A stretch of DNA of 44,769 bases, from contig LFRS01000168.1 in NCBI GenBank assembly GCA_001512435.1, forward strand, positions 1 through 44,769, given 5' to 3'. Numbering within the stretch: position 1 is the first letter of the stretch; every line of letters begins with the position of its first letter. The notes under the pieces are model-generated. The model had not been told where the DNA came from. It was given only the letters and a program-made list of their open reading frames with translations, and made no database searches. A program made the position numbers and the translations under genes. This document shows positions 2,796 through 32,086 of this stretch, piece by piece. Origin of the DNA: Halothermothrix sp. DTU029. Lineage in GTDB: Bacteria > Bacillota > Halanaerobiia > Halanaerobiales > DTU029.

Positions 2796-3893
2796 TTACT
2801 TATCAGCCCGGTATAACATGATTCCTCCTATCACCAGAAAAACAAGATTCTGTACCCAGGCCCCAAATAATGGGGGTATGGTCCCCTGTTCACCAAGGGC
2901 ACTCCCGATAGTCATGAGGGTATAATAAATAAAGATAACTATAATACTGATCCCCATTCCCGTTGCCGAACCACCGGAACGTTGGGGATAAATCCCCAAT
3001 ACAGCTGCCAATAAGGCAAAGATAAAGTTGGCAAAGGGGATGGAAATCCGCTGGTGTAAGCTTACTAATTCTTCATTTATATTCTTGCCCTGCCTGGCCT
3101 GAAATTTTATAAATTCCCTTAATTCATTAAAGTTCATATCATCAATAGCCTTGTTTAACCTGGCCACCTGGGCCGGCTGGTAATTTAAGGGTATATTCCT
3201 ATATTCACTGAAAGTCAAAGCAGGAATCCTTTCTCCGGCCTGTAAATGTATAATCCGGCCATTGATGAATACCCAGCTCCCCCCATCCTGCCAGATAGCT
3301 TCTTCTGCTTCTATCAACTGAACAGGCTTACCCTCTTCAAAGGCCTGAAAGATAACATCCTGCATAATCCCGGTAGCCCCGTTAAAGCTACGGGCATAAA
3401 GGAAGAATTCCGGCCTGCCCCTCCCATCCCGGGCAGGTAGCATTAAATTATTCTGGGTAGCCGGCCGCCGGTATCCATGTTTAAATTCCCAGACGATCTG
3501 TTCATTAAGGTAATTTGCCTGGGGAACAACTAATTCATTGACAGCAATGGTGACAAAAGTCATCAAAAGGCCCAGGAATAAGGCCGGTATAACCAGTTTA
3601 TAGATACTGATACCACTGGACCTCATAGCCGTGATCTCCCCATCACCGGAAAGGCGGCCATAACCCATGATTGTCCCCAGCAAGGTAGCCATGGGTATTG
3701 TATAAACAGCAATAGCCGGTATATTCAGGAAAAACAACTGGATTAAAGTAAGGATCCGCACACCATAATTATTATAATAATCTATTAGTTCAAATAAAAG
3801 ATCTGTACCTATAAATATAGCTGTAAAGGCAGCCACCCCAAATAATAATGGTGTCAATAATTCCAGGGTTATATATCTATAAATAAGCTTCAT
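2796..3893 (-). CDS. LPS export permease, LptF/LptG family
   Basis: About 365 residues. The start ATG at 3893 is set by AAGAAGGTG five bases upstream; longer in-frame starts would run into lptB. Three N-terminal membrane helices (about 10-35, 50-75, 95-120) include the family motif YGRLSGDGEITAMRSSGIS, which lies in the coupling-helix region contacting LptB. A periplasmic beta-jellyroll-like region (about 130-260) and three C-terminal helices follow. With LptB it forms the inner-membrane ABC complex that extracts LPS and passes it to LptC. The partner permease is probably the N-terminal half of the fusion at 14033-17179. I cannot decide LptF versus LptG from sequence. It lies 13 bases after lptB in the same operon. 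Confidence 0.93.
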   Translation of the reverse strand: MKLIYRYITLELLTPLLFGVAAFTAIFIGTDLLFELIDYYNNYGVRILTLIQLFFLNIPAIAVYTIPMATLLGTIMGYGRLSGDGEITAMRSSGISIYKLVIPALFLGLLMTFVTIAVNELVVPQANYLNEQIVWEFKHGYRRPATQNNLMLPARDGRGRPEFFLYARSFNGATGIMQDVIFQAFEEGKPVQLIEAEEAIWQDGGSWVFINGRIIHLQAGERIPALTFSEYRNIPLNYQPAQVARLNKAIDDMNFNELREFIKFQARQGKNINEELVSLHQRISIPFANFIFALLAAVLGIYPQRSGGSATGMGISIIVIFIYYTLMTIGSALGEQGTIPPLFGAWVQNLVFLVIGGIMLYRADK

Positions 3894-3906
3894 CAAGACA
3901 CCTTCT

Positions 3907-4626
3907 TTACATTGTAAATCTCTCTCCCAGGTAAAACTTCCGGGCCAACTCGCTATTGGCAACCTCCTCTGAGCTGCCGCTTAAGAGGATCTTGCCTTCA
4001 TGCATAATATAGGCCCTGTCAGTAATGGAGAGTGTTTCCCGGACACTGTGGTCTGTAATAAGTACACCCAGGCCCCTTTCCTTCAGGTAAGTAATAATGT
4101 TTTGGATATCACTGACAGCTATGGGGTCAACTCCAGCAAAAGGCTCATCCAGGAGAATAAAGGAAGGATCAGTAGCCAGGGAACGGGCAATTTCCACCCT
4201 CCGCCTTTCTCCTCCGGATAACTGGTATCCTTTACGTTCCCTCAAATGAGCAATATCAAACTCCTCCAGGAGCTCTTCCAGTTTCTGCTGAATTTCTTCC
4301 CGGCTTAATTTGCGGGCCTGTAATATAGACAGGATATTATTCTGGACAGTCATCTTCCTGAAAACAGATGGTTCCTGAGAAAGATAGCCAATACCATTGC
4401 GGGCCCGTTGAAAAACAGGCAAATGGGTAATCTCCTTCTCATCAAGAAAAATCTGGCCACTTTCTGGCTTAATTAAACCAACCACCATATAAAAGGTAGT
4501 AGTCTTACCGGCACCATTTGGACCCAGAAGGCCTACAATCTCTCCCCTTGCCACGGTTAGATCTACCTCATTAACAACCCGCTGTTTATTATATTCTTTC
4601 ACAAGGCCAGTAGCGACAATGCTCAT
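3907..4626 (-). CDS. lptB: LPS export ABC ATPase LptB
   Basis: 239 residues, the full length for LptB. Walker A GPNGAGKT is at 35-42, the Q-loop in YLSQEPSVFR, the ABC signature LSGGE at 136-140, Walker B with catalytic Glu in LLDEP at 158-162, and the switch His in ITDHSVRE. The SQEPSVFRKMTV string is typical of LptB. It powers LPS extraction from the inner membrane together with the LptF/G permeases. It abuts lptA (one base after its stop) and precedes the permease gene, giving the order lptC-lptA-lptB-lptF/G. Confidence 0.96.
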   Translation of the reverse strand: MSIVATGLVKEYNKQRVVNEVDLTVARGEIVGLLGPNGAGKTTTFYMVVGLIKPESGQIFLDEKEITHLPVFQRARNGIGYLSQEPSVFRKMTVQNNILSILQARKLSREEIQQKLEELLEEFDIAHLRERKGYQLSGGERRRVEIARSLATDPSFILLDEPFAGVDPIAVSDIQNIITYLKERGLGVLITDHSVRETLSITDRAYIMHEGKILLSGSSEEVANSELARKFYLGERFTM

Positions 4627-5289
4627 CTATTCTCCACCCTTATCTCCAAAAAGAAGTTCTGCTCTTCCCTGTAATTTGATCTTTTCACTATTTAAGTCCA
4701 GTTCCATCCGTTCTCCGGAAAGCTTCAAATCTCCATTTTGGCCATTGATATTACCTTCCAGGACCAGGAGGTCTTGCTCCCTTTCATAATTCAAGCTGTC
4801 TGCCTGAACCTGGATTTCCTTATAAAGGAGAAGAACATTCCCGGTAAAAATAAAAAGCCCCTCATTTTTCATCTCCAGGCTAATAGAGTTGATCTTTAAA
4901 TCATCAGCCTGAAAATAAACCTCATCTCTGGCAACAAAGCTCTTTTCATTTAGGTTTCCGCTAAGGCTTTTTGCCCTTAAGAAATAATCTCCAACGGATA
5001 GGGAAATATTACCCTTTATCTCTATGCTTTCACCCGGATAATCATATTCAATATAATCAGCTTTTATATGATAATCCTCATAAACCAGGAGGGCATTTCC
5101 CTCAGCAATAAGTAAGTCTACTCCATTATCGGCAAAAAAGCTAGTAATCCGATCAGCCCATAGGCCTTCAGGCTCTTCCCCTGCAGCCAAAACTGAAGCA
5201 GTGGTAAATAATAATACCAGGATTAATAGTACAGGTAAAAAATATTTTCTTAAAATAATGTTATCAGTCCTGATTCTGATCACTCCCAT
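4627..5289 (-). CDS. lptA: LptA-like periplasmic LPS bridge protein (OstA fold)
   Basis: 220 residues. An N-terminal hydrophobic segment (about 13-36) ends in an Ala-rich SPase I-type site (ASVLAAGEE). The rest is alternating beta-strands typical of the OstA/LptA jellyroll: repeated short strands such as ADYIEYDYPGESIEIKGNIS, with the recurring phrases about basal structures (IEAEGNALL-type strands, LVLEGNINGQNGDLKLSG). LptA oligomers bridge LptC to LptD across the periplasm. The start overlaps lptC by 26 bases; a GTG six bases later is an alternative. A second OstA-like gene lies at 13354-14007. Confidence 0.85.
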   Translation of the reverse strand: MGVIRIRTDNIILRKYFLPVLLILVLLFTTASVLAAGEEPEGLWADRITSFFADNGVDLLIAEGNALLVYEDYHIKADYIEYDYPGESIEIKGNISLSVGDYFLRAKSLSGNLNEKSFVARDEVYFQADDLKINSISLEMKNEGLFIFTGNVLLLYKEIQVQADSLNYEREQDLLVLEGNINGQNGDLKLSGERMELDLNSEKIKLQGRAELLFGDKGGE

Positions 5290-5851
5290 CTTTCCAGGTA
5301 AAATAAGCCTGTTTCCCTTCTCCTCCCATTATGGTAATTCTATTCAGGCTTAAATCTGTTTCCAGGCTATCTCCTTCTATAATAAAATCAGGGGAATGAA
5401 TATAAATCCCCCCAGTAGCCAGCAGGAGGTCTCCCCCATCCTGCCAGCTTATCCTGGCAGCCTGGAAATTAAGCTGATCTTTTATAATCTCTATAGGCCC
5501 ACTAATCTCCATCAGGCCTGAATCCAGTTCATAGAGGCTATTGTTGGCATAGAGCTTATAAAGGATTTCCTCCTCTGCAGTAAGGGCTGTAATATTTACT
5601 GGGAATAATTCCAGCACCCTTTGCCTGGCAAAATTATTAATACTTTCCGAATCCAGATGCCAGCTGATAGAGGCATCACTATTGAAAAAAACCAGTTGAA
5701 CATTTTTAAACTGGTCACCTGGTAATAAATTATCTTCCTCCAGCTCTCCTGGCTTATTTTGAATCCTTTCCGGCTGATAATGCAAACTCATATAAATCCC
5801 CACAATAATAATTATAAGGCCAAGTAGTATTAAAATTCTTCTATTTTTCAA
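5264..5851 (-). CDS. lptC: LptC-like LPS export protein
   Basis: About 195 residues. There is a single N-terminal membrane anchor (ILILLGLIIIIVGIYMSL), then a periplasmic all-beta domain with the LptC/YrbK pattern (WHLDSESINNF, then LYANNSLYELDSGLMEISGP). LptC takes LPS from the LptBFG complex and passes it to LptA. The TTG at 5851 is preferred because GGAG lies eight bases upstream; the GTG at 5860 overlaps that GGAG. The small size, position before lptA-lptB and topology support the call even though LptC sequences diverge strongly. Confidence 0.82.
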   Translation of the reverse strand: MKNRRILILLGLIIIIVGIYMSLHYQPERIQNKPGELEEDNLLPGDQFKNVQLVFFNSDASISWHLDSESINNFARQRVLELFPVNITALTAEEEILYKLYANNSLYELDSGLMEISGPIEIIKDQLNFQAARISWQDGGDLLLATGGIYIHSPDFIIEGDSLETDLSLNRITIMGGEGKQAYFTWKDGSDQNQD

Positions 5852-5876
5852 GTTAATCACTCCGGACTAATATGAC

Positions 5877-10105: not shown

Positions 10106-10840
10106 TTAATTGTAATTTATAATATTTTTGTACTTTTTACCTATCCATGACGAAGGCTTATTTAAAACCTGCTCCGGAGAACCACTCTCTATAAATTTAC
10201 CCTGATCCATAAAATATATCCTATCAGCTACCCGGCGGGCAAAGGCTACCTCATGGGTTACAATAATCATGGAGGTATTCTTTCTTTCCCGGGCAATTCT
10301 CTCCAGGGTATCCAGTACCTCGTAAACCAGTATTGGGTCAAGAGAGGCAGTTGGTTCATCCAGTAAAACCAGATCTGGCTCCATCACCAGGGCCCTGGCA
10401 ATTCCCACCCTTTGTTTCTCTCCGCCACTGAGCCTGTCCACCGGGCTATCAGCCAGGTCTTCCAGGCCAACATCCTGGAGAGCCAGAATGGCCTTTTCAT
10501 AAGCCTCTTCTATAGAATAACCCTTTTTTATTAATCCCAGGGAAACATTTTCTTTCACAGTCAGGCGCTGGATTAAATTAAAGTGTTGAAAGACAAAACC
10601 AATCCCCAGTCTTATTTTCTCCATTTCTTCAGCTTTTAGATTATGAATGGGAATATCATTAAAAAATATCTCCCCGGAATCAGGTTCAATTAAACGATTG
10701 ATACAACGGATAAAAGTGGATTTTCCACAACCGCTGGGGCCCATCACTGCAATAATCTCCCCTGCTTCCAGTTCTAAATTTAACCCATCTATTACTATAT
10801 CACTGCCATAGGCTTTTTTCAAATTATTTATCTTAAGCAT
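10106..10840 (-). CDS. ABC transporter ATPase, GlnQ/MetN-like
   Basis: About 244 residues. Walker A is GPSGCGKST, the Q-loop FVFQHFNLI, the signature LSGGEKQRVGIARAL, Walker B LVLLDEPTASLDP and the switch His VTHEVAF. Similarity is to importer-type (polar amino acid, methionine) ATPases, not to MlaF or MsbA by eye. The only partner in reach is the upstream gene (34-base gap), a large coiled-coil protein ending in an EAA-type coupling loop. No substrate-binding protein is nearby. The second of two adjacent ATGs (10840) has GGGAGG six bases upstream. It lies between that permease and lpxC, in the LPS gene order, which points to an envelope role; the substrate is unknown. Confidence 0.9.
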   Translation of the reverse strand: MLKINNLKKAYGSDIVIDGLNLELEAGEIIAVMGPSGCGKSTFIRCINRLIEPDSGEIFFNDIPIHNLKAEEMEKIRLGIGFVFQHFNLIQRLTVKENVSLGLIKKGYSIEEAYEKAILALQDVGLEDLADSPVDRLSGGEKQRVGIARALVMEPDLVLLDEPTASLDPILVYEVLDTLERIARERKNTSMIIVTHEVAFARRVADRIYFMDQGKFIESGSPEQVLNKPSSWIGKKYKNIINYN

Positions 10841-10876
10841 CATATACCTCCCAGGCTTATATAAATCCCTTGCTCC

Positions 10877-13234
10877 TTATTTAAAAATCATCTTGGGATA
10901 GTTCAATAAATAGAGCAGGCCAGGCTTGGCTGCTGGAATAATTATCTCCTGCATGATTTCTGCCGGAGACAGGCCCAGGGCCTTCCCTGCTTCCCATTCC
11001 TCCCTGCTGACGGGATTAAGCATCCCAGCCAGCAAAGCAATAATCAGTCCTGTTATCCCCCCAATGAGAAACTCAATGGCAAAATTCAAATAAGGGAAAC
11101 TAACCCTGCTCAAGAAACAGATCATGCTAAAAATAAAGCCTCCTGCCAAAAAGCCATAACTATAACCCTTCTTATTATTTAATCTCAAAACACTGACTAT
11201 CAAGCTATGGTCCAGAATCAATAAGAGGACAGTAAAAATAAAGGCAATAAGCATGGAGATAACAGCCTTAACCTGGCGTAGGAGATTCAGGATTTCACTC
11301 CGGGGATTAGCCTGTAATACCCCTGCCTCCATTTCCAGATAAGTCACTGCCGGATTAGCAATAATCCCCTTAATTTCCTTCAGTATTTTATCACTATTGT
11401 ACTTACCCTTAATCAATAGTTGAATCTGGTCCCCAGGGATAACCTCCCCGGCAATATAACTATCGATAAGATTAATTGTTTCTACTATCTCCTCTTCCTT
11501 CATATCTGGCAAGGAATTCTGGATATAGGATAACTGTTCCAGAACCAGGGGTAATTGAGCAGTCTGCAACTCCATTAAAATCCCCTGAATAGATCTTAAA
11601 CTTTCCTGTAAATGGTCGGTATCAAAGACAGTGATTATCTCATCTATCTCGCCGATCAGGGCAATGATTTCTTCCCATTCTGTCCCGCTATTTAAGGTTT
11701 CCTCTACCTTTAATAAAGAGGCTATTTTACTCTGCCAGCTGTCAATAGAGACCAGGACGGGGTCCATATCATCCAGCCTGGCTGCTACCAGATCATAATT
11801 ATTATCCAGGGCAGTCGACAATTGGAGGAAAACTTCTTTCAAATCCTCCAGCTGTTCATAAATACTATTACTCCGGGGCACATATATTAATCTTTCTTCT
11901 ATTAAACCGGCACCCTCTCGCAGACGGTTACTGGTCTGAATTAAGTCCCTCTGTATATCACTTATATCCCCAACATTACTTTTTAAATCCCCCAGTATTG
12001 CCAGTAAATCCTGGAGAAAACTCGAAAGCTCCTGTTCCTGCCACTCAGCCAGGGACTTACTTAATTTCCCGCTGAGTTCTTCTACCTGGCCCAGCCCCTG
12101 ATTAATATTGGCCAGATTATCATCCAGCCTGTCACTATATTCTATTAACTGTTCGCTCTGGCCAATAAAGTTATTTAAAACCGGTACTATCTCATCCAGC
12201 CTGCTCAGGGTAAGGGCCAGATCTTCCCTGGGATTATGGATCAGGCCAGTACCCAATTTCTCCCGTTCATTTCCCCGACTATCAGTGGAAAAAACCTCCA
12301 GGGGTTCTGGAGAAATATTGCCAATATCCCCCTGTTGGATGATAGCAGTAATCTTCTCCTCCTCTTTATCAATGACCTTAAGTTCCAGGTAACTACCCTC
12401 TCCTGTCCTGGCCAATAATCTGCTATTTACCGAAATACTATCAGCCAGGTCCGGCTTTTCAATGATCACCTTGCTGGCATAGGAGAGTAGAAAATTCTTC
12501 ATCTGCTGTAAACTGGTCAACATTGAGACCTGTCCTGTCTTGTTGTTCTCGGTTACACTGACCAGTTCTTCCAGCTCTCCCTTTAATAGATTAATAATCT
12601 CTTCTTCTTTTTCCAGCAAATCCCCGGGATTCTGGTTTAAGGGATACCTGATCTCCAGAAGCCGGTATTGGCCAAGGACTCTTTCTATACTGTCTTTAAC
12701 CCGGGCTATTAATTCCGGACTCTGGACAATAATATCAAAACCATCACTGGTAGGGTATAAAAAATTTATCCCCTCTATCGCTTCCAGCAGTGGCCGCAGA
12801 TAAGACCGGCTTTTACCCCTGAATCCCCTTACGGATAAACGGGGCTCAGTCATAATAGTCCTACTGCTTAAACCAGGAATATCGGCAAAATATTTGCCCA
12901 GGTTAACATAAACCCTTTCATTTTTAAACTCCTCCGGGATTTTTAATAAATAAGTACTAATCCCTACTAAATCAGGCCCCTTCTTCAGCCGGGCACCAGG
13001 CAAGGTCTCTCCAGCCACCTTCCTGATCTGCTCAAGAGCCAGTTCTTCCTGATCACTGCTGATTGTAAACAGGAGATCATACTCACCATAATCCCCGATA
13101 ATACCACTGACTATATCAGCAAAGTAGTTATCAGCTAAATAAGCTCCAATCAGTACTAAAACAGTACCCAGGAGAATGGAGCTTATCAATAAAAATACTA
13201 TATCTTTTTTAAAATTAGTCCTCCAGAGAAACAT
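10877..13234 (-). CDS. Unusual ABC permease with large extracytoplasmic coiled-coil domain
   Basis: 785 residues, not recognised as a named family. One N-terminal membrane helix (about 12-36) is followed by roughly 600 residues outside the membrane: a mixed alpha/beta part (about 45-200) and a long coiled-coil region (about 340-560, phrases such as RLDDNLANINQGLGQVEELS). Three hydrophobic helices follow (about 660-685, 695-715, 720-740). The extreme C-terminus reads EAGKALGLSPAEIMQEIIIP, which fits the EAA coupling motif of binding-protein-type ABC permeases (EAA---G---------I-LP). No membrane helix follows the motif, unlike ordinary importers. The adjacent ATPase is the obvious partner. A sigma-A promoter (13261-13289) precedes it. 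Given its place between lptA-like and lpxC, a lipid or LPS transport role is inferred. Confidence 0.7.
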   Translation of the reverse strand: MFLWRTNFKKDIVFLLISSILLGTVLVLIGAYLADNYFADIVSGIIGDYGEYDLLFTISSDQEELALEQIRKVAGETLPGARLKKGPDLVGISTYLLKIPEEFKNERVYVNLGKYFADIPGLSSRTIMTEPRLSVRGFRGKSRSYLRPLLEAIEGINFLYPTSDGFDIIVQSPELIARVKDSIERVLGQYRLLEIRYPLNQNPGDLLEKEEEIINLLKGELEELVSVTENNKTGQVSMLTSLQQMKNFLLSYASKVIIEKPDLADSISVNSRLLARTGEGSYLELKVIDKEEEKITAIIQQGDIGNISPEPLEVFSTDSRGNEREKLGTGLIHNPREDLALTLSRLDEIVPVLNNFIGQSEQLIEYSDRLDDNLANINQGLGQVEELSGKLSKSLAEWQEQELSSFLQDLLAILGDLKSNVGDISDIQRDLIQTSNRLREGAGLIEERLIYVPRSNSIYEQLEDLKEVFLQLSTALDNNYDLVAARLDDMDPVLVSIDSWQSKIASLLKVEETLNSGTEWEEIIALIGEIDEIITVFDTDHLQESLRSIQGILMELQTAQLPLVLEQLSYIQNSLPDMKEEEIVETINLIDSYIAGEVIPGDQIQLLIKGKYNSDKILKEIKGIIANPAVTYLEMEAGVLQANPRSEILNLLRQVKAVISMLIAFIFTVLLLILDHSLIVSVLRLNNKKGYSYGFLAGGFIFSMICFLSRVSFPYLNFAIEFLIGGITGLIIALLAGMLNPVSREEWEAGKALGLSPAEIMQEIIIPAAKPGLLYLLNYPKMIFK

Positions 13235-13353: not shown

Positions 13354-14007
13354 TTATTCAGCTGCAAGATCCACCTCCAGCTCTACATTCCCTTCTGCTA
13401 CAAATTCCTCTGTTTTCAGATAAAAAATAGCCCGCTCACTTTTTACCCAGTCACCATTATCCTCTTCAATATAAACATCTTTAATTAACTCCAGGGTCTC
13501 TTCCTCTTCATTATAGAAGACTGTTTCCCCCTTCAGTATTCTGCCTTTATAATTAATCACTACCCCCTGCCTGGCCTGAAAGGAATTGTTTTCCTTAAAA
13601 AGTTCCAGGAAAGTACTGGTCAGATTAAAATCTCCCTCTTCCAGTATCTGCAACATCTTTACCTCTTCCCGGAAAACATAGCGGTCAGTCTCCAGAAAGG
13701 CCTCCATCTTCTCACAGGAGATTTGGCCCTTATCGTGACTTAATTGGACTCCCCCGCTGATTTCCGCCCTTTTCTCCCGTTCAAAATAAAGGAGTTTTTC
13801 CCCCTGGACTTCTACATCTCCTTTAATGAGTGTAACACCCTCACTGCCTTCTATCCTGCCATCTGTGCTATTCAATCTACCGGTTCTTATTATCAAGGGG
13901 TTCTTCCCCTTACTTTCTCCCTCAAGACCTGTCTCCCCTAATAAAACGGTGGTCCAGAGCAAGAAAAACAGTGTCAGTAAAAGGATTATACTGAAAGACT
14001 TTTTCAT
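13354..14007 (-). CDS. LptA/OstA-like periplasmic protein (second copy)
   Basis: 217 residues. An N-terminal signal peptide or anchor (KKSFSIILLLTLFFLLWTTV) is followed by OstA-fold beta-strands: RTGRLNSTDGRIEGSEG, VTLIKGDVEVQGEKLLYF, ISGGVQLSHDKGQISCEKME, VYIEEDNGDWVKSERAIFYL. It is probably another periplasmic LPS-bridge component or an N-terminal jellyroll partner of LptD, since it sits 25 bases downstream of the lptF-D fusion. It is clearly distinct in sequence from the LptA-like protein at 4627-5289. The start ATG has GAGGAGGG upstream. Confidence 0.82.
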   Translation of the reverse strand: MKKSFSIILLLTLFFLLWTTVLLGETGLEGESKGKNPLIIRTGRLNSTDGRIEGSEGVTLIKGDVEVQGEKLLYFEREKRAEISGGVQLSHDKGQISCEKMEAFLETDRYVFREEVKMLQILEEGDFNLTSTFLELFKENNSFQARQGVVINYKGRILKGETVFYNEEEETLELIKDVYIEEDNGDWVKSERAIFYLKTEEFVAEGNVELEVDLAAE

Positions 14008-14032: not shown

Positions 14033-17000
14033 TTACTCTTTCCCCAGCAGTTCATCCAGTCCCAGGTCAAAGATAAAGTCATTATCCCGACTCCGGCCTA
14101 GAGAGAAAGATTGCCCGGGAAATAGGTTTATATTATATTCCAGGGAATATTCCTGTTTGACATAATCATAACGGAAGGTCAGGGAACGGCAATGGAAAAC
14201 CTTCCGGAGAGCCAGATTGGCAGTTCTAAGTTCATTGTAGCGGTAATCATAACGACTGTTCAGTTCAAGATACCATTCATCCTCCAGGTCAAAGATTAAC
14301 TGATTATCCAGTTCCTTGACCATCTTATTATTCAAATCATAGCGTAAGCCAGTATTAATCTCCCAGGGCTCTGCCTTATATTTGTTGGTCAGGACAAAAT
14401 CTCCAAAAGTATTCTCCAGGGGGTTATAGGAAGTACCTATATTCAGATTCCAGTTTTCCCTGATCTGCCACCTTAAAGTAGCTGTAATAGGTAAATACCT
14501 CAGATTATAGATATCATAGCCGGAAGCCAAGTTTATATATAAGCCCCCCCTATTGTATCTTAAATAAGTATCTACCCTCTCCCTGATGGTAGAATCAAAG
14601 GTAAAGGGACTATCACCCCAGTAATCCCGATAAGTATATTTGGTATTCCAGCTAAGTCCCGGATATAGGGGCACCTGGAGGTTATGGGAGGCACTATAAT
14701 TAACCTGATAGGGGAGGCCAAAGATACTGTATTCCTCTTCCCTGTATTCCCCATAAAAATTATTTTCTCTTTTATCTTCAAGTATCCTGTAAATACTGCC
14801 ACTTAAATTCTGCTCGGTAGTAAAGCTGCTATTCTTATATAAAGGCCAGGTCCTCCGATAATTTATACCAGCCTGGCTGCGTAAGCCCTCAACCCTGGCC
14901 CGGTCCTCATAATATCTGCCACTTTTAAAATCAAAACTCCAGGGCCCTGCCGGCCTGTAATTTAAGGAAAACTCCGGCAAACGGTAATAACTGACCTGGT
15001 CCTCTTCCTCCGCCTCAGTAAAGGTCGGGGCCCTCCGCTCCAGGGTAATCCTATAATCCAGCCGGCCCAGATTCCTGGCCAGATAGGTGGAACCTCCCCA
15101 GCGCTGTTTCAAAGGCTCCTCGGGTTTATAACGGTAATCCCGGTAAAGGTCCAGGTGGTAACGCCACTTGCCGGGCAAATTCTTATCAAAGATCAAGTCA
15201 AAATCCAGATCCTTATTATCTTTATGGTCTGATTCATAATAATCCCTGCTGAGAAAATAAGAACGTAAATCCAGTGACCAGGTATCAGCCCTGTTCGTCA
15301 GATTAACCCTGCCATTGGTATAAGAATAATCATCATAGTTGATATACCTGATAAAGGTATCTGTCTCCCACTGGCTTTTATTATTATCTATCCGCAGCTC
15401 TCCCTGCCAGTTAAATAAACCCGGTATGTCTGTCCTGTTCTCCTGGCCGTATAAATAGAGATAGCCCTTTAAATCCTTTTCATAAAGGAAATGCTGTTTG
15501 AAACCACCGGCCAGGCCGGAAATGGTATAATAATCAAGATATAATTCTCCAGGCAGCTGGTCCTGATACCAGTAACGGTAAGTAGCCTTGAGAAACCAGC
15601 CCCGGCTGGCACTATAGCCAGGTTCAAGAATCAGATTCTGTTCCCTTTCCTTTAAGGAAATATAGAGATAGGGAGTATAGAAAAGGGGTAATTTGCCATT
15701 TAATTCACGAAAGACCACATGTTTGGCAATTAAATAATCACCTGGATAGATTATAACCTCCTTAGCATCCAGGTAATAATGAGGCTTATCCAGGTCACAA
15801 CCAGTCAGTTTTCCTCCATCAATATTAATCTCATCCACCCGGTAATGGGCCTCCTCTGTCCCATCAGCCATCATAACCTTAATGGTTTCAGCCTGGATAT
15901 GATAAAGGCCATACTGGCCCAGGATCTCTCCACTAAGTTCATAGCAGGCCTTTTCATGGTCATAGGTTAATCTATCAGCACTGTAAATATTAAAGGTCTC
16001 TGCCTCTACACTAAGGCTAAAAGAAATTAAAAGGTAAAAAACCAGCAGGAAAGGCATAAACCTGTAAAGCCTGTCTAGCCAGTTTTGCCATTTCTCCCTT
16101 CCCAGCAGTAAGATAAGACCTATTAGTCCAAAGATTATATTGGGCAACCAGGCGGCCAATAAGGGATCCAGTTTGCCATTTTTGCCAAAGGATTGGGAAA
16201 TGGAGAGGATCAGGTAATATAAAAAGACAATAACAATGGTAAAAACAATGCTTACAGAACGGCTGTCCTTGCTGCTTAGACTCAGTGGAGTCCCAATCAG
16301 GATAAAAATCAAGGCCGAAAGAGGGGTAGTCAGTTTTAAATGATAATCAATCAGGAGACTATCTACATTTATGCCACTCCGTTGAAAGAGATCAATTTCT
16401 TTTTTTAACCTCTTTCTATTCATCTCGGCAGTAGTCCTCTGCTCACCATAAAAATTCTCCACTTCACTGGCAATCTCATATTCCATGGTATCAAAAAGCA
16501 GGGCCTGGTAGAGTTCACCTTCTTCATTATATTTGTGAATAATCCCCCCTTCCAGGCGCCATTTATTCCCCAGGATCCTGGCAGACCGGGCAGTAATAAT
16601 TACTGGATAGTCCTCATCTACAGGCAGCTCATAGACTATTATCCTTTCCAGGAGCCCCTCCTCCTGCTTATATTTATTAACAAAAAACAACCTTCCTTCC
16701 GGCCCCTTGAAAAAAACATTATCCTGGACATCAGGCAAAGGTTGTTTTAAGATATTAATCCGGATAATATTCTGGGCTTCATGGTGGGTCCAGGGTACTA
16801 TTTCCTCATTTATATAATAGGTAAGGCCACTGATGACTATACCCAGTATTATTAAAGGCAGGATTAGCCTGTAGAGGCTGATCCCTCCCAGGCGTAAAGC
16901 AGTAAATTCATTTTCCCGGTTTAACCTGGACATACCATAGAGGGTAGCGAACAAAATAGCAATGGGAAAAGACTGTACAATAATATAGGGTAACTGATAA

Positions 17001-17179
17001 AAGAGGAGTTTCAGCACCACATTTATAGGGATATCCTTGACAATAATCAAATCTGTGAGCTGAAACAAAAAACTGCTCAATCCGATAACTGTTACTATGG
17101 CTACCCCGGCCAGATATGGAAGCAAGACCTCTTTCATGATGTAGATATCTATTATCCTGTTTCGCCAAAATCTATACAT
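14033..17179 (-). CDS. Fusion: LptF/G permease + LptD-like outer-membrane LPS assembly protein
   Basis: 1048 residues in one uninterrupted frame. Residues 1-370 are a complete LptF/G permease: N-terminal helices, the family motif YGMSRLNRENEFTALRLGGIS, a periplasmic beta region, and C-terminal helices with TPLSLSSKDSRSVSIVF. At about 375-393 comes a signal-peptide-like segment (MPFLLVFYLLISFSLSVEA, SPase I-type V-E-A). After it comes an OstA/LptA-like domain (about 394-510, FNIYSADRLTYDHEKACYEL) and then a long Tyr/Trp/Arg-rich beta-strand region to the end, as in LptD barrels. The start ATG at 17179 follows AAGGGG by nine bases; an ATG at 17239 would be at the transcription start. The two halves normally sit in different membranes, so processing is likely. 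See findings. Confidence 0.85.
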   Translation of the reverse strand: MYRFWRNRIIDIYIMKEVLLPYLAGVAIVTVIGLSSFLFQLTDLIIVKDIPINVVLKLLFYQLPYIIVQSFPIAILFATLYGMSRLNRENEFTALRLGGISLYRLILPLIILGIVISGLTYYINEEIVPWTHHEAQNIIRINILKQPLPDVQDNVFFKGPEGRLFFVNKYKQEEGLLERIIVYELPVDEDYPVIITARSARILGNKWRLEGGIIHKYNEEGELYQALLFDTMEYEIASEVENFYGEQRTTAEMNRKRLKKEIDLFQRSGINVDSLLIDYHLKLTTPLSALIFILIGTPLSLSSKDSRSVSIVFTIVIVFLYYLILSISQSFGKNGKLDPLLAAWLPNIIFGLIGLILLLGREKWQNWLDRLYRFMPFLLVFYLLISFSLSVEAETFNIYSADRLTYDHEKACYELSGEILGQYGLYHIQAETIKVMMADGTEEAHYRVDEINIDGGKLTGCDLDKPHYYLDAKEVIIYPGDYLIAKHVVFRELNGKLPLFYTPYLYISLKEREQNLILEPGYSASRGWFLKATYRYWYQDQLPGELYLDYYTISGLAGGFKQHFLYEKDLKGYLYLYGQENRTDIPGLFNWQGELRIDNNKSQWETDTFIRYINYDDYSYTNGRVNLTNRADTWSLDLRSYFLSRDYYESDHKDNKDLDFDLIFDKNLPGKWRYHLDLYRDYRYKPEEPLKQRWGGSTYLARNLGRLDYRITLERRAPTFTEAEEEDQVSYYRLPEFSLNYRPAGPWSFDFKSGRYYEDRARVEGLRSQAGINYRRTWPLYKNSSFTTEQNLSGSIYRILEDKRENNFYGEYREEEYSIFGLPYQVNYSASHNLQVPLYPGLSWNTKYTYRDYWGDSPFTFDSTIRERVDTYLRYNRGGLYINLASGYDIYNLRYLPITATLRWQIRENWNLNIGTSYNPLENTFGDFVLTNKYKAEPWEINTGLRYDLNNKMVKELDNQLIFDLEDEWYLELNSRYDYRYNELRTANLALRKVFHCRSLTFRYDYVKQEYSLEYNINLFPGQSFSLGRSRDNDFIFDLGLDELLGKE

Positions 17180-17248
17180 AGAGCCAATACCCCTTGTCAG
17201 ATAATAAGCATTTCTATAATTCCTTCTCTTTCTACACATTATTTATTA

Positions 17249-17362: not shown

Positions 17363-18991
17363 ATGAAAGCAGGTATGATTATGTATAAAATAATGAAAAA
17401 ATCCAGCATTATTATTCTGGCCCTATTATCGGTCTCATTGCTTTTGACAGGTTGTAGTAATGATAGTACAAGGCAGGAACTCTTCCAGATCAAAGGCAGG
17501 GTAGAACTGTCCACATTACCTGCAGTAATGGCAGTACAGGACCTTAGGCCAAGGCATCCTGGCCAGCCAGACCAAAGAGAAAAACTGGCCATTAATTCTG
17601 TAGAAGAAAACCTCTTCACCCTTCCACTGGAAGCAGTTCAAATAAAGGCAAGGGAATATATTGTAAAATTTAATCAGGATATTGATAGGGCTTATCTCCA
17701 GAAGGAGATTTTAAAGGGAAAGGGCCAAATACTTAACAGGCTTAGAGATAATATCTATAAAATCAGCCTGGATGATGAAAACAGGGATATAATCAAGAAA
17801 TTGGAGGAAAACCCCCTGGTTTCCTATATAGAACCAGAGTATCTGGTACATATACAGCATATCCCCAATGATCCTGGTTATGCCAAACAATGGAATCTAA
17901 AACTCCTCAATCTGGAGACAGTCTGGCAGAACTGGTCAGGCAGTAAAGATACAATAGTGGCAGTAATTGATACAGGCATCCTCCCTGGCCATCCAGACCT
18001 GGCTGGCAATATCATACCCGGTTATGATTTTATCGATGATGACAATGACCCTACAGATACCAATAAGGAATTTAGCCATGGCACCCATGTTGCCGGTATT
18101 ATCGGGGCTATGACCAATAACCAGCAAGGGATAGCGGGTATAAACTGGCAGGTCAGTATTATGCCCATCCGGGTTATTGGAAAAGAAGGAACAGGAGATT
18201 ATAGTGCCCTCATCGCCGGCATCTATTGGGCTGTAGACAATGGAGCTAATGTAATCAACCTGAGCCTGGCTGGTTCCATGGATACCATCGCCCTGAGGGA
18301 GGCCATACAATATGCTGTCCAGCACCAGGTAACAGTAGTTGCTGCTGCCGGTAATAATGGTAGTAGTCCCATCCTCTACCCGGCAAGATATCCAGAAGTT
18401 ATCAGTGTTGGAGCTGTTGGACCTACCAGGGAAAGGGCCTATTACTCCAATTATGGTCCAGAACTGGACCTGGTGGCACCGGGAGGAGATAGTAGTATCC
18501 TTACAGAAGAATATAATACTATCCTCAGTACCGCCGGCTACATGGACAATAATACAGCTGTATATCAATATACCTGGGCCCAGGGTACCTCCATGGCTGC
18601 CCCCCATGTTTCTGCTTCAGTAGCCCTCCTCTATAGTGCCGGAATTACTGATCCAGTGGAGATACAGAGGCTTCTAAGGGAAACAGCTGATGATCTGGGC
18701 AGCCCCGGACCAGATAGTTTTTACGGAGCAGGCCTGCTCAATATAAAAAGGGCCCTGGCATACACTGGCTGGTATGAGGATGATACCAGTATACTGGTCC
18801 AGGCTATTAATAAAACAAGTGGGGAAAAGAAATCCGTCTTTGTAGATCCGGTCAAAAGAAACTTCACCCTGACCCTGGCCAGAGGGCCCTGGACAATAAA
18901 AGCCAGTTATGAAAACGAAACTGGCCAATACTCTGGAGAAATAGATATCCTGGTTCCTGCTGATAAGGAGATAGTAATAAAAATCCATTAA
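17363..18991 (+). CDS. Subtilisin-family (S8) serine protease, lipoprotein
   Basis: 542 residues and the only plus-strand gene. A lipoprotein signal peptide ends in the lipobox LLTGC (Cys31). A stretch of about 70 residues (95-165, REYIVKFNQDI through YIEPEYLV) resembles the inhibitor I9 propeptide. The catalytic domain has Asp203 (VIDTGILPGHPD), His239 (HGTHVAGI), oxyanion Asn331 (AAAGNNG) and Ser410 (GTSMAAPHVSAS), so it looks active. A C-terminal domain of about 75 residues is beta-rich. It should be anchored in a membrane facing the periplasm or outside and could act on envelope proteins. The start ATG has AAAGGG just upstream. It is convergent with the small OMP gene and divergent from lptF-D, interrupting the minus-strand cluster. 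Confidence 0.92.
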   Translation: MKAGMIMYKIMKKSSIIILALLSVSLLLTGCSNDSTRQELFQIKGRVELSTLPAVMAVQDLRPRHPGQPDQREKLAINSVEENLFTLPLEAVQIKAREYIVKFNQDIDRAYLQKEILKGKGQILNRLRDNIYKISLDDENRDIIKKLEENPLVSYIEPEYLVHIQHIPNDPGYAKQWNLKLLNLETVWQNWSGSKDTIVAVIDTGILPGHPDLAGNIIPGYDFIDDDNDPTDTNKEFSHGTHVAGIIGAMTNNQQGIAGINWQVSIMPIRVIGKEGTGDYSALIAGIYWAVDNGANVINLSLAGSMDTIALREAIQYAVQHQVTVVAAAGNNGSSPILYPARYPEVISVGAVGPTRERAYYSNYGPELDLVAPGGDSSILTEEYNTILSTAGYMDNNTAVYQYTWAQGTSMAAPHVSASVALLYSAGITDPVEIQRLLRETADDLGSPGPDSFYGAGLLNIKRALAYTGWYEDDTSILVQAINKTSGEKKSVFVDPVKRNFTLTLARGPWTIKASYENETGQYSGEIDILVPADKEIVIKIH

Positions 18992-19131: not shown

Positions 19132-19728
19132 CTAGAAAAGGTAACCTATGCCCAGCCTTACCTCTTTTAAGTCTACAAAACCAAGATCCACCTTCATATT
19201 TTCCTGTAAATTCATCTGTACTCCAAAACTGACTTTACTATTCTTATATTCCCCTTTCAGATTAACAATGGGCAAAGAAGGCCTGGAACTGGTATTAATG
19301 GAAACCGGGTTTAAAATCTTATTAAAACCAATAAAGAGTCCAGCAGTACTGGCATCGGAAAAACCGATATGAGCCCGGAAACCCAGGCCTAAATCCTTGC
19401 TGGCCACAAGGTACAAATCCTCTTTCTGCAAACCTATAGCCACTGCAGGTTGTTCTGCTCCTTCCTGTACAAGGATTAATTTAGCCAGTATACCTGGCTC
19501 TGTATAATTATGGCCAAACTCTACAATCCCTCCCAGAGCCAGGGAAGGACTTACATTATATAGGCCGGAAACCTGCCGGTGGGTAGAACCAAGAAGCTCA
19601 CCAGAAATAAAGCCTTTGCCCCCTACCAAATCAGCTGTAGGGACCTCTACCAATTTATCCAGGGCTAAAACATTTATATTAATAAGTAATAAGAACAATA
19701 AGCCTAAAATAATTATATTCCTTTTCAT
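19132..19728 (-). CDS. Small predicted outer-membrane beta-barrel protein
   Basis: 198 residues, not assigned to a named family. A signal peptide (about 1-22, ending NVLA) is followed by short alternating amphipathic strands: [52 protein letters not shown]. The C-terminal strand RLGIGYLF ends in Phe, the classical BamA-recognised signal of outer-membrane barrels. It might be loosely related to YjbH-like envelope proteins ([20 protein letters not shown]). It overlaps lpxD by four bases (ATGA) and is the last gene of the tamB-bamA-lpxD operon, so it is probably co-expressed with its assembly machinery. Confidence 0.75.
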
Positions 19729-22218: not shown

Positions 22219-22854
22219 CTATCCTTCATTATTTTCTTGAACAGCTAAGTCATCAAGTTCTCCATTTTCCGTTTCCGCTCCGAATCCAGCAGATCCTTCA
22301 TTATTTTCTTGAACAGCTAAGTCATCAAGGCTGGCTGCTGCTTCTCCGCCAGGGTTTTCTTCTCTATTAGCACTTTCTTGCCCGGGATCATTTTCCTTAT
22401 ATTTCTCTTCAATATAATTAATCACTTCTTCAGTCAGGTCAATTCCGCCATAGATTACATTGTTCTTATCCAGTACCATTTTTAACTCTTTTTGCCCGGC
22501 CAGTTCTGCAATCTCTTTTCTAATTTTGTCGATAATATTCTGGACTAATTCCCGTTCTCTTTGAGTCAATCTGGTCTGATATTGTTCCAGCAACTCCTGT
22601 TGCTCATTTTTTGCCAGGCCTTTGGCTTTTTCCTCTAACTCTGCCTGCATGGCCTGGGCCAGCTGGTTTAATTCCTCTTCTGCTTCAACCTTTTCTGGAT
22701 GATAATTAAAGATAACCCAGAGGTCTACATAGGCAATCCGACCAGCCATATCTGACCCAAGGACAGATTCTACCGGGCTTAAAAGAAAGAATAAGCCAGT
22801 AATTAATGCCAGCATTATCACCACTACTACTGATTTAGAACTTAATAACTTCAT
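22219..22854 (-). CDS. Skp/OmpH-like periplasmic chaperone with duplicated acidic tail
   Basis: About 211 residues. A signal peptide or anchor (about 1-34) is followed by the OmpH/Skp core: RIAYVDLWVIFNYHPEKVEA, a coiled-coil middle, and LKMVLDKNNVIYGGIDLTEEVI. A low-complexity acidic tail of about 50 residues contains LDDLAVQENNEG twice. The ATG at 22854 has AAGGGGG five bases upstream. It sits directly after bamA, the usual bamA-skp-lpxD arrangement. The tail repeat is also a perfect 37-bp DNA repeat (see the repeat entries). Confidence 0.87.
   Translation of the reverse strand: MKLLSSKSVVVVIMLALITGLFFLLSPVESVLGSDMAGRIAYVDLWVIFNYHPEKVEAEEELNQLAQAMQAELEEKAKGLAKNEQQELLEQYQTRLTQRERELVQNIIDKIRKEIAELAGQKELKMVLDKNNVIYGGIDLTEEVINYIEEKYKENDPGQESANREENPGGEAAASLDDLAVQENNEGSAGFGAETENGELDDLAVQENNEG
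22221..22257 (-). repeat. 37-bp direct repeat, copy 1 (Skp tail)
   Basis: Identical over 37 bases to 22293-22329, with an offset of 72 bases (24 codons), so the frame is kept. It encodes the last LDDLAVQENNEG of the Skp-like protein and touches the stop codon. Confidence 0.95.
22293..22329 (-). repeat. 37-bp direct repeat, copy 2 (Skp tail)
   Basis: Perfect partner of 22221-22257. Synonymous sites are identical too, which suggests a recent tandem duplication or ongoing slippage. Confidence 0.95.
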
Positions 22855-22886
22855 ATTTTCCCCCTTAAATTTTCTCACTATCACCA

Positions 22887-24548
22887 TTAGAAAGTATGGC
22901 CAATGCTAAAATGAGGTTGGCCCCCACCATCTTCATTAAAGCCATAATCCAGCCTTAACTGCCCGATGGGAGTATTCATTCTAAGACCAGCACCGATGGA
23001 ATATCTAAGATCTCCCAGGTCAATACTTTCTTCTTTTTCCCAGACATTTCCGGCATCAGCAAAAACCACAGCAGTAAAATTATCAGCAATAGGAAGGCGG
23101 TATTCCAGATTTAAGAGGAGGAGAGAATCACCATAAAAGGCTCCATACTCATAACCCCTCAGGCTCTGGGAACCACCCAGGGTGTATTTCTCCAGTTGAG
23201 GCAGCTCACCTTCTCCCTTGCCTGCCTTTAAGCGTAAAGCCCAGGCATGGTTGCTCTTAAATCCTGGATAAAACCTTCTCATATCCATATTATACTTAAC
23301 AAAATTCTCAGTTCCTCCCAGGAAATTTCCAGCATATTCTATAGAAAATATATCTATTGCTCCACCAGTAGGATTAAAGGGGTGATTAGTAGTATCTCTA
23401 TCTACCTGAAAAGTTAAACTGCGCAGTGCCTTTTTTTCTATCTCCTTATCTGCCAGCCACTCCCTTTCTGTATCTTCTGCTTTAAAGGTTATTTGACCAT
23501 CCCATTCATTGATTAGATTATGGCCTAAAAGGAGGTTACCACCTCGCCGGTTTAAACTATATTCTCTATCTTCTAGTTTTCCCGTTGAAGTCCGGTCATA
23601 AAGGCCGATACCAAAGGAAGTCCTGGTACCCAGCAACCAGGGTTCATAAAAATTAATTGAGTAATTGGTTACACCCCCAAACTGCCATTGGAAGCCCAGG
23701 GTCTGGCCATTACCCAGCAGGTTCCTTTCCTGGATATCAATATAACCTAACCAACCATCCTTGGTACTATAGGTAACCCCTACTGACAGTAGGCCGGTTT
23801 TGGCTTCTGCTACCTCAATGATGATATTAGCAGTATTCTCCAGGATACTAACCCTTTCCAGTTGTGGGTTAAACTCGGCAAAGAGATTCAACCTGACCAG
23901 GTTCTGGAAGGAATTCTGCAGGACATTCATATTTAATACATCCCCAGGTTTAAATTCCAATTGCCGCAGGATAACAAAATCTTTGGTTTTCTCATTCCCC
24001 TTCAGGATAATATCATTAATATAACCTTCATTAAACCTGACTGTAAGTATACCATCATCTGAAATATGCAAATCAGTTAACATGGCCAGGATATAGCCGG
24101 CCTCCTGATATGCCTGCTCTATCTCTCTTCTGCCTTGCAAAAGGGTATTATGATTCAATACTTCACCTTTTTGGACTCCCAATAAAGATAAAATCTCTTC
24201 TTCGGAAAAAGACTCTACTCCTTCTATCAGTATATCCTTTATGACAGGATATTCAACAAGCTCAAAAATAGCCTTTAAACCACCCAGGTAAACCTCAAAA
24301 GAAACACTGGCATCCTGAAAATAACCTAGATCATAGATCCTTTGTAAATCTGCCTTTATTACCTCTTCATCCAGAGGTTTCCCTATTTCTGTCTCCAGGA
24401 GAGTCAGGATCTCTTCAGTACTAACCCGCTGGTTTCCCTCCAGCTCCAGGGCAGTTATTATATGGAAACCTTCATTTGCCAGTACCACACTATTGATTAG
24501 TAGAATAAGAAACAAAGAAACTAAAAATATCCTCCCTGCCTTTTTCAA
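22887..24548 (-). CDS. bamA: BamA/Omp85 outer-membrane protein assembly factor
   Basis: 553 residues. After a signal peptide (about 1-24) there are three POTRA-like domains: ITALELEGNQRVSTEEIL, IKDILIEGVESFSEEEIL and INDIILKGNEKTKDFVILRQ. The 16-stranded Omp85 barrel starts near 260, with the conserved LRGYEYG loop motif (L6 VRGF/Y type), FADAGNVW and the C-terminal FSIGHTF. It folds beta-barrels into the outer membrane. Three POTRAs instead of five makes it shorter than the proteobacterial protein; TamA also has three, but context (skp, lpxD) supports BamA. tamB is two genes upstream, so one Omp85 may serve both roles. Confidence 0.93.
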   Translation of the reverse strand: MKKAGRIFLVSLFLILLINSVVLANEGFHIITALELEGNQRVSTEEILTLLETEIGKPLDEEVIKADLQRIYDLGYFQDASVSFEVYLGGLKAIFELVEYPVIKDILIEGVESFSEEEILSLLGVQKGEVLNHNTLLQGRREIEQAYQEAGYILAMLTDLHISDDGILTVRFNEGYINDIILKGNEKTKDFVILRQLEFKPGDVLNMNVLQNSFQNLVRLNLFAEFNPQLERVSILENTANIIIEVAEAKTGLLSVGVTYSTKDGWLGYIDIQERNLLGNGQTLGFQWQFGGVTNYSINFYEPWLLGTRTSFGIGLYDRTSTGKLEDREYSLNRRGGNLLLGHNLINEWDGQITFKAEDTEREWLADKEIEKKALRSLTFQVDRDTTNHPFNPTGGAIDIFSIEYAGNFLGGTENFVKYNMDMRRFYPGFKSNHAWALRLKAGKGEGELPQLEKYTLGGSQSLRGYEYGAFYGDSLLLLNLEYRLPIADNFTAVVFADAGNVWEKEESIDLGDLRYSIGAGLRMNTPIGQLRLDYGFNEDGGGQPHFSIGHTF

Positions 24549-30271: not shown

Positions 30272-32086
30272 TTACACACTGCCAGGAGCAGTATTTTCTG
30301 TCACTTCTTCAATATTAAAATCGATTACAAGATTACCTTCCAGAACATAATCAGTAGCATGGATTTCTTTTATCTCCCGGTATGAATTTTGCTCCCTGAT
30401 CTTTCTATCTGAATCAGGCCTTTTTTCCTCTTTTTCTTCTGTTTCAATTACATCATCCCCAGGGCTATTCTCTCTGGCCTGTCTTTCTTCCTGATTCTCT
30501 CCTTCTTCTTCTGTTTCTTCAATTTCCTGTTCAGGAACATAATAAGCAGGATAAACCTGCAGAATCAATTCATTATTCCTGGGCCTAGCCAGGTAATCCT
30601 TAAGGATTGATTCTAAGTCTTTATAGCCTTCAACAATAGCCTGTTTGGCCTCTGCCAATTCATAATCCTCATCAGGCAGAGCCTGGTAAGAAATCCCGGT
30701 AAGCCCTCCATCAATCACCAGGCTAGCATTGCCAGGATTAATATCATCTGGCAGTTTAAAGGCAATATTCTGGACAACCGGGTCAGAACGGTAAGGTAAC
30801 AAAGTAACCTCTATCTCCAGGGTATCCCCTGCCTTAATTTTTTCATTTAAAATCCTGGCTTCCTGAATCAAGGCAACATTATCCAGATTACTGATCTCCA
30901 CATCCACTTTAATATCTATTAACTCTACCTTCTTAAAAGGATTGATATTGATGATATTCATCAATTCATATAGTTCATATAAGGCTGTAGCAGCAATATC
31001 AGATCTGCTATAAAAGACATTTTCCCTCTCCAGGCCAAGCTCAGGCAAACCCTTTCCTGTAATCTTTAGCTTAACCCGGGCAGTACCCTTACCTACTCTA
31101 TCCAGGGTAGAATCTATAGCCTGTAAAGAAACATTGGTAATCAGGGATGTCAAATAATCCTCATCTTTGATCAGCTGAACATTTACAATTTCAGATTTAT
31201 CCCGCTCCTGGTCCTTGACCTTGACCGATAAGGGAATTATTCTAGGAACCTTCTGCAGGGTTCCGGCCAGGCCTGCATTGCGGTCAACAGTAACTGAACC
31301 AATCAGCTCATCAGTTGGAGACCCTAATTTAAAAGGGCTGGAAATGCTGGGGATAATAGCATTAATATAGGCCCGGCTTAATAAATAATCCACCTCTCCC
31401 TTATTGGTAAAAGAATGCCCCAGGGCCAGTATATTTCCACCCTCCATATAGGTTAAGGTACCAATAGCGGCTATATTTACATCCCCTCTAACCAGTTGAA
31501 CAGCTACCGCACTTCCTTCCTCCAGGGCTTCCTCTGTGTCAGTTCTGGCACCTAAACCTCCACCCTGGAGAACCTGAAAGCCCAGGTTTTCAAATACCTT
31601 CCTGGTTCTCTGAAAGGCCCTGCCCTGCATCCCACTGATATATAAGGGAGTATTTAAAGGAAAACCCCGGAATCCTTTTTCACCAGTTTGGCCAGTGGAT
31701 TCCAGGAGGGCCAGCATATCTTCAATAGGTGTAATCAGGCCAAAACGGTGGTCACTTAAGGACCAGCTATAGGCAATAGCCCCGATTAATTTGCCATCAA
31801 TATAAACAGGGCTGCCACTCATCCCGGAGGCTATACCACCTATTTCCTCGATTTTTTCTCCATAAGCCCTAAACAAAATCAGGCCAGTATTTAAATCCCC
31901 CTGAATTATATCTATTATCTTAACGGGAAATTCCTCTACCTTATAACCCTGGAAAACCGTCCTGGCAACTCCTTCCATGTCTGGCTTGATTTCATTAAGT
32001 TTCATTATTGCTTTTCCCTTTGCTGCTATAGATAATACTAGAACTAAGGCTAGAACATATATAAATAATCTCCTATTAGCTTTCAA
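30272..32086 (-). CDS. SpoIVB peptidase (S55)-like envelope serine protease
   Basis: 604 residues from a TTG with AAAGGA about nine bases upstream. After a signal peptide (about 1-26) comes an S55 domain: IGGIASGMSGSPVYIDGKLI (Ser90) and later LALGHSFTNKGEVDYL (His224). In Bacillus SpoIVB the equivalent His precedes the Ser, so the motif order is reversed here, a layout I believe is shared by other non-sporulation S55-domain proteins. The middle is beta-rich, and the end is an acidic, charged low-complexity stretch (about 520-580). It lies 22 bases after mreB and before tamB, which suggests an envelope function, not necessarily sporulation. Catalytic activity is inferred. Confidence 0.8.
   Translation of the reverse strand: MKANRRLFIYVLALVLVLSIAAKGKAIMKLNEIKPDMEGVARTVFQGYKVEEFPVKIIDIIQGDLNTGLILFRAYGEKIEEIGGIASGMSGSPVYIDGKLIGAIAYSWSLSDHRFGLITPIEDMLALLESTGQTGEKGFRGFPLNTPLYISGMQGRAFQRTRKVFENLGFQVLQGGGLGARTDTEEALEEGSAVAVQLVRGDVNIAAIGTLTYMEGGNILALGHSFTNKGEVDYLLSRAYINAIIPSISSPFKLGSPTDELIGSVTVDRNAGLAGTLQKVPRIIPLSVKVKDQERDKSEIVNVQLIKDEDYLTSLITNVSLQAIDSTLDRVGKGTARVKLKITGKGLPELGLERENVFYSRSDIAATALYELYELMNIININPFKKVELIDIKVDVEISNLDNVALIQEARILNEKIKAGDTLEIEVTLLPYRSDPVVQNIAFKLPDDINPGNASLVIDGGLTGISYQALPDEDYELAEAKQAIVEGYKDLESILKDYLARPRNNELILQVYPAYYVPEQEIEETEEEGENQEERQARENSPGDDVIETEEKEEKRPDSDRKIREQNSYREIKEIHATDYVLEGNLVIDFNIEEVTENTAPGSV

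Follow-up and report, generated by a model that had tools for sequence, protein, structure and literature searches.

The window analysed here, a stretch of 44,769 nucleotides from Halothermothrix sp. DTU029, contains a gene in which an LptF-type permease and an LptD homologue are encoded in one polypeptide. The two halves are joined by a segment resembling a signal peptide, and signal peptidase I probably cuts the polypeptide there to give separate LptF and LptD proteins. This cleavage is an inference, with no data at the protein level. The features of the gene and of its surroundings are collected in Table 1.

Table 1. Features of the fused gene and of the other Lpt genes in the window
Feature	Position	Strand	Basis
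Fused lptF-lptD gene	14033..17179	-	1048 codons, ATG 17179, no internal stop
LptF-type permease domain, residues 1-359	16103..17179	-	PF03739, hydropathy, F-clade of permease tree
Internal signal-peptide-like segment, residues 374-393, predicted signal peptidase I site VEA/ET between 393 and 394	16001..16060	-	Small-x-Ala pattern; alignment with signal peptides of split LptD
LptD moiety, residues 394-1048 (shortened N-terminal domain, then putative barrel)	14036..16000	-	Profile-profile match to stand-alone LptD family; best PDB match LptD
Invariant Cys461, N-domain motif SGCD..PHYY	15797..15799	-	Alignment A1; in-motif counterpart of E. coli LptD C173
Invariant Cys997 near C-terminus, HCR motif	14189..14191	-	Alignment A1; counterpart of E. 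coli LptD C724/C725
Periplasmic LptA/LptC-like protein carrying a signal peptide, immediately downstream of fused gene	13354..14007	-	PF06835 and PF03968 above cut-off
Subtilisin-like lipoprotein, lipobox LLTG/C, adjoining fused gene	17363..18991	+	PF00082, E 6e-61
Second permease, G-clade (LptG-type), adjoining lptB	2796..3962	-	PF03739, E 1e-90; tree
LptB-type ATPase	3907..4626	-	PF00005; position adjoining lptG
LptA-like protein	4627..5289	-	PF03968
LptC-like protein	5264..5860	-	PF06835 below cut-off; position

The N-terminal half is a complete permease. Residues 13-359 match the Pfam family LptF_LptG with an E-value of 7.4e-95 and 318 bits against a curated cut-off of 27.9, covering positions 2-352 of the 353 in the profile. 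Hydropathy gives six hydrophobic segments, followed by a seventh at residues 374-392, and a gap at about 124-280 marks the large periplasmic domain between TM3 and TM4. The single uninterrupted frame, the full six-helix permease and the signal-peptide-like segment ending in Val-Glu-Ala had been described in a first-pass annotation of this DNA, and all three are found where it had placed them. An in-frame ATG at 17239, upstream of the assigned start, is a less likely initiation codon, since the frame in the sister genome G002 begins at the homologue of 17179. The fused permease does not reach the NCBIfam equivalog cut-offs for LptG (182.6 against 240 bits) or LptF (171.1 against 230 bits). The names F and G therefore denote here the two clades of the permease tree described below and not equivalog assignments.

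The identity of the C-terminal half rests on comparison of profiles. Searched as a single sequence, these 655 residues have no significant match in Pfam or the PDB. Two alignments were used, A1 with 21 sequences of the fused LptD family and A2 with the stand-alone LptD-like family of Halanaerobiales. In hhalign the A1 profile matches A2 with a probability of 99.8% (E 5.7e-28), and the A2 profile matches the solved LptD structure 8h1r with an E-value of 3.5e-11. Because of this two-step match, the C-terminal half and the A2 family are both, as judged from their profiles, LptD homologues. The direct match of A1 to 8h1r is weak (E 0.0056), though LptD is its best match in the PDB, and direct alignment of A1 with the single sequence of E. 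coli LptD gives no meaningful match (probability 3.9%). AlphaFold2 run on the single sequence of this half, without an alignment of relatives, gives a pLDDT of 31, too low to be informative on the fold. The first-pass annotation had assigned to this half an LptD-like character and an OstA-like jellyroll. The former is borne out by the profiles. The LptA-like N-terminal jellyroll family (PF03968) is detected in 4 of the 21 members of A1, the window protein not being among them.

The fused LptD and the A2 proteins are homologous along the chain. In all 21 sequences of A1, Cys461 and Cys997 are invariant, and A2 likewise has one invariant cysteine at each of the two places. The cysteines of E. 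coli LptD are at positions 31, 173, 724 and 725. A disulfide bond between the two domains, Cys461-Cys997, may be inferred from this conservation. However, the A2 proteins have their own signal peptide, are encoded by a separate gene, and possess a longer N-terminal domain, a part of which is missing from the fused LptD in the profile alignment. They are also present in genomes without the fusion.

The fused frame is conserved in many genomes, and an origin by frameshift or by an error of sequencing or assembly is thereby ruled out. Complete fused frames of 1040-1137 residues were found in 19 of the 38 genomes of the order, and one more is truncated by the end of its contig. The permease stands alone in six of the 38 (one of the six being a fragment at a contig end), and 12 of the 38, one of which is only 62% complete, have no close homologue of the fused permease. 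In the sister genomes G002 and G003 the orthologues are 83-84% identical, have identical length and frame, and differ in the permease mostly by synonymous changes. Outside the order, the fused frame occurs in two genomes of the same class, G331 and G076, and elsewhere in the phylum in families f71, f46 and f80. The search for the same fusion in other diderm Firmicutes, which had been proposed as a check in the first-pass annotation, has thus given a positive result, within the order, elsewhere in the class and in a distinct clade made up of other families. The same annotation had held that the joint reading would fall if the relatives all carried two separate genes; they are mostly fused. With a single frame, a PF03739 match, LptD recognised by profile and the frame kept in many genomes, the assignment of permease and LptD to one polypeptide stands. 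Genome G076 (L093, L108) has, in addition to the fused gene, a separate LptF of the same clade on another contig.

The segment between the two halves has the properties of a signal peptide. Around the predicted cut the sequence reads ...RLYRFMPFLLVFYLLISFSLSVEA before the site and ETF after it, and residue 394 as the new N-terminus is a prediction. The hydrophobic core and a small-x-Ala site within 2-14 residues of it are present in 27 of 27 fused proteins, in both fused groups, and a basic n-region is present in nearly all (none was counted in L132). The same pattern follows TM1, TM2, TM3, TM5 and TM6 of these proteins in only 0, 3, 6, 8 and 5 cases of 27, which makes signal peptidase I the best supported of three options that the first-pass annotation had left open. 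The background for the pattern is 23% of windows in the C-terminal half. It should be noted that the 27 sequences are related, so that test values for the site overstate their independence, and that the site is less clear in the relatives G007 and G006. The linker with the segment is the fastest-changing part of the protein, with 14-15 of 45 codons altered in amino acid compared to 26-28 of 355 in the permease. In relatives with split genes, LptD starts with an ordinary N-terminal signal peptide at the place aligned to the internal segment.

Cleavage by signal peptidase I is favoured because the site is kept in every fused protein despite the drift of the sequence, and because internal start codons are not conserved. 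The latter point bears on the second option, in which LptD would be made from the internal ATG at 16057, just before the segment, and the fused frame would give mainly LptF plus some read-through product. Such an ATG is indeed present in the window. However, its Shine-Dalgarno match is only 3 bases and the codon is absent in the two closest relatives, so that this proposal is not supported. In 10 of the 27 fused genes there is no ATG, GTG or TTG in the region of the segment, and the rest have no conserved Shine-Dalgarno sequence. Internal initiation as a conserved mechanism is rejected on this survey, and for the window gene we regard it as very improbable. The third option is that no cleavage takes place, so that the seventh segment serves as an anchor and permease and barrel remain covalently joined across the periplasm. 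Nothing in the sequence alone excludes an anchor, and the fusion has been retained over long evolution. A clear small-x-Ala site in all 27 proteins would not be expected of a mere anchor, however, and relatives with split genes exist. Moreover, the distance from the segment to the LptD motif bordering the barrel is only about 100 residues, which we infer to be too short for the periplasm if folded. A permanently joined form is unlikely, mainly on this geometry.

Another protease could also make the cut in place of signal peptidase I, for example the subtilisin-like lipoprotein encoded next to the fused gene, or this enzyme could trim LptD or control its quality. The subtilase gene adjoins the fused gene in 12 genomes of the order, and in the split-gene genome G024 it adjoins LptD and not LptF. 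None was seen, however, in the retrieved flanks of the other fused genes, which are short, and a site of signal peptidase type is present in all fused proteins. Processing by a protease other than signal peptidase I thus appears doubtful, and the subtilase is only a lead as a candidate processing or quality-control protease of LptD.

With cleavage by signal peptidase I, the gene product would be a natural precursor of two proteins. Residues 1 to about 370 would insert in the inner membrane and form the LptF-type half of the Lpt ABC exporter. Their C-terminal end would face the cytoplasm, the location established for the LptF family. The LptD half would therefore be expected to end up outside, because the seventh segment has a basic start. 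The basic linker and this segment would act as a signal peptide in the middle of the protein, the remainder being exported via the Sec translocon, and signal peptidase I would cleave after VEA (393/394). The freed LptD, with one disulfide between its N-domain and C-terminus, would then be taken up by the Bam complex for insertion and folding in the outer membrane; genes for BamA (Omp85) and OmpH/Skp are located nearby in the window, at 22219-24548. LptF may work with LptB, either as a homodimer or together with LptG. The two products would be made one to one, and together with LptA/LptC-like proteins they would belong to a single trans-envelope bridge, one at either end. The topology, the outer-membrane insertion and the stoichiometry are all inferred.

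The arrangement of these genes in other diderm Bacillota may explain how the fusion arose. In many of them lptF and lptD are direct neighbours on one strand, lptF coming first, and in some pairs the two genes overlap or almost touch, so that fusion needs little more than the loss of a stop codon. A maximum-likelihood tree of 65 permeases separates two clades with 100/100 support. The permeases of the G-clade, which includes the one at 2796-3962, adjoin lptB, while those of the F-clade, which includes the window fusion, adjoin LptD or are fused with it. Inside the F-clade the fused genes form two separate groups, with separate genes nested in the Halanaerobia-type group, and parsimony gives five changes of the fused or split state on the tree. 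A single clade of all fused proteins is rejected (p 5e-10). The tree is most simply read as showing that fusion took place twice and that some of the fused genes were later split again, although a single ancient fusion with many subsequent splits is not ruled out.

The first-pass annotation did not notice the second, stand-alone LptD, the LptG-type permease, the two fused groups and the retention of LptF-LptD independently of LPS. The window genome has only two LptF/G permeases, the fused one and that at 2796-3962. Its stand-alone LptD, of the A2 family and with its own signal peptide, is located at C66:3145-4770, and A2 proteins occur in 35 of the 38 genomes of the order, this one included. 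Because of it, the main LPS translocon may be one other than the fused LptD. The LptA/LptC-like gene is also downstream in those fused relatives whose loci extend that far.

It is important to compare this arrangement with the known systems. In common with LptB2FGC/LptDE of E. coli and other Gram-negative bacteria, there are PF03739 permeases, LptB, LptA/LptC-like proteins, and an LptD with an N-domain and C-terminal cysteines. The differences are that LptF and LptD are here one polypeptide with an internal signal peptide and that a second, stand-alone LptD is present. In the diderm Firmicute Veillonella parvula, LptD (Vpar_0647) was found in outer-membrane fractions and is encoded by a separate gene outside the main cluster (PMC5491611); as described there, it is not fused. 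For the Halanaerobiales, Antunes et al. (2016) reported LptB, a single LptF/G and two proteins with OstA domains, with LptD and LptE not found (PMC5007114). This is the same order and gene cluster, and it corresponds to the block at 2796-5860 of the window. In contrast to that report, two LptD homologues are present here, one of them hidden behind a second permease, and the fusion accounts for LptD having been missed in the 2016 survey. No description of an LptF-LptD fusion was found in the literature searched, although a mention in Taib et al. (2020) is not excluded.

The presence of two permeases and two LptD proteins raises the question of their cargo. It was approached with 76 genomes of the phylum, selected for carrying an LptD-like match. 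Of the 59 genomes with LpxC, 57 have the G-type permease and 57 the F-type; of the 17 without LpxC, 1 has the G-type and 16 the F-type. The sole LpxC-less genome with a G-type permease, G193, is 85% complete. Two LptD proteins were found in 17 of 26 genomes with LpxC and in 0 of 11 without. The only permease-LptD pair retained in the LpxC-less genomes is LptF-LptD, as a fusion or as neighbouring genes. One of these genomes, G283, has the fused gene among bamA, skp, lptC-like, lptA-like and LptB-type ATPase genes, and its locus is a complete Lpt line without lipid A synthesis. Those members of the order that lack LptF-LptD still have LpxC together with the G-type permease and the stand-alone LptD, and two of these are single-contig genomes. 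It seems that either permease type can function without the other, because the F-type is kept in the former genomes and the G-type in the latter; this would imply homodimers in those lineages, again by inference.

These distributions suggest that LptF-LptD may be a second Lpt line with a cargo other than LPS, the LPS being carried by LptG and the stand-alone LptD. This possibility, compatible with the cleavage model, is a tentative one. It agrees with the tracking of LpxC by the G-type permease and the second LptD, with retention of the F-type in genomes without LpxC, with the gene content of order members that lack LptF-LptD, and with the LpxC-less locus of G283. However, G226 and G403 have LpxC and only an F-type permease, so that this type is probably able to carry LPS, and the fused gene of the window lies in a lipid-A cluster of a genome that has LpxC. 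In addition, the LpxC-less lineages are few families, and their counts are not independent. Extended to diderm Bacillota as a whole, the proposal would be of two partly independent Lpt lines, LptG with a stand-alone LptD for LPS, and LptF-LptD, adjacent genes that apparently became one precursor twice, for some other surface lipid or lipoprotein and surviving the loss of LPS. The cargo is inferred from gene content, and this wider proposal is likewise tentative.

An inner-membrane exporter subunit and an outer-membrane translocon encoded by one reading frame are very unusual, and the arrangement has apparently arisen twice. Genetically it couples a particular LptF to a particular LptD; it also implies that the two are made in a fixed ratio, and it predicts that signal peptidase cuts a polytopic protein partway along its chain. 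It is a natural handle on how the export line is built. The question of the Lpt cargo in the absence of LPS has been raised in a review (PMC11784454). Lineages without LpxC that have LptF-LptD as their only pair make this question testable, as well as that of one permease type acting as a homodimer.

Several neighbouring genes may be noted. The stand-alone LptD (L079 / C66:3145-4770) is adjoined by an uncharacterised protein of 244 residues containing ...YSPEISGNYERGERSY, with no Pfam match, and similar neighbours are found beside the stand-alone LptD in other members of the order. Between lpxD and the fused gene, at 19132-19728 (-), a secreted protein of 198 residues is encoded which belongs to no Pfam family; similar proteins occur there in several relatives. 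An ABC ATPase and a membrane protein of 785 residues are encoded at 10106-13234 (-), and the latter has a long coiled region in the periplasm and ends in a weak match to BPD_transp_1. This pair comes after the LptF-LptD-LptC/A block in distant families too (for example L143 8238-11416). It is not strictly part of the fused line, as G004 has the pair without the fusion and several fused genomes are without the pair. At 30272-32086 (-), between mreB and tamB in the outer-membrane gene cluster, there is a protein with a SpoIVB-type S55 peptidase domain, and a possibly related protein of 558 residues, judged by eye, precedes bamA in G073 (L145 3917-5593).
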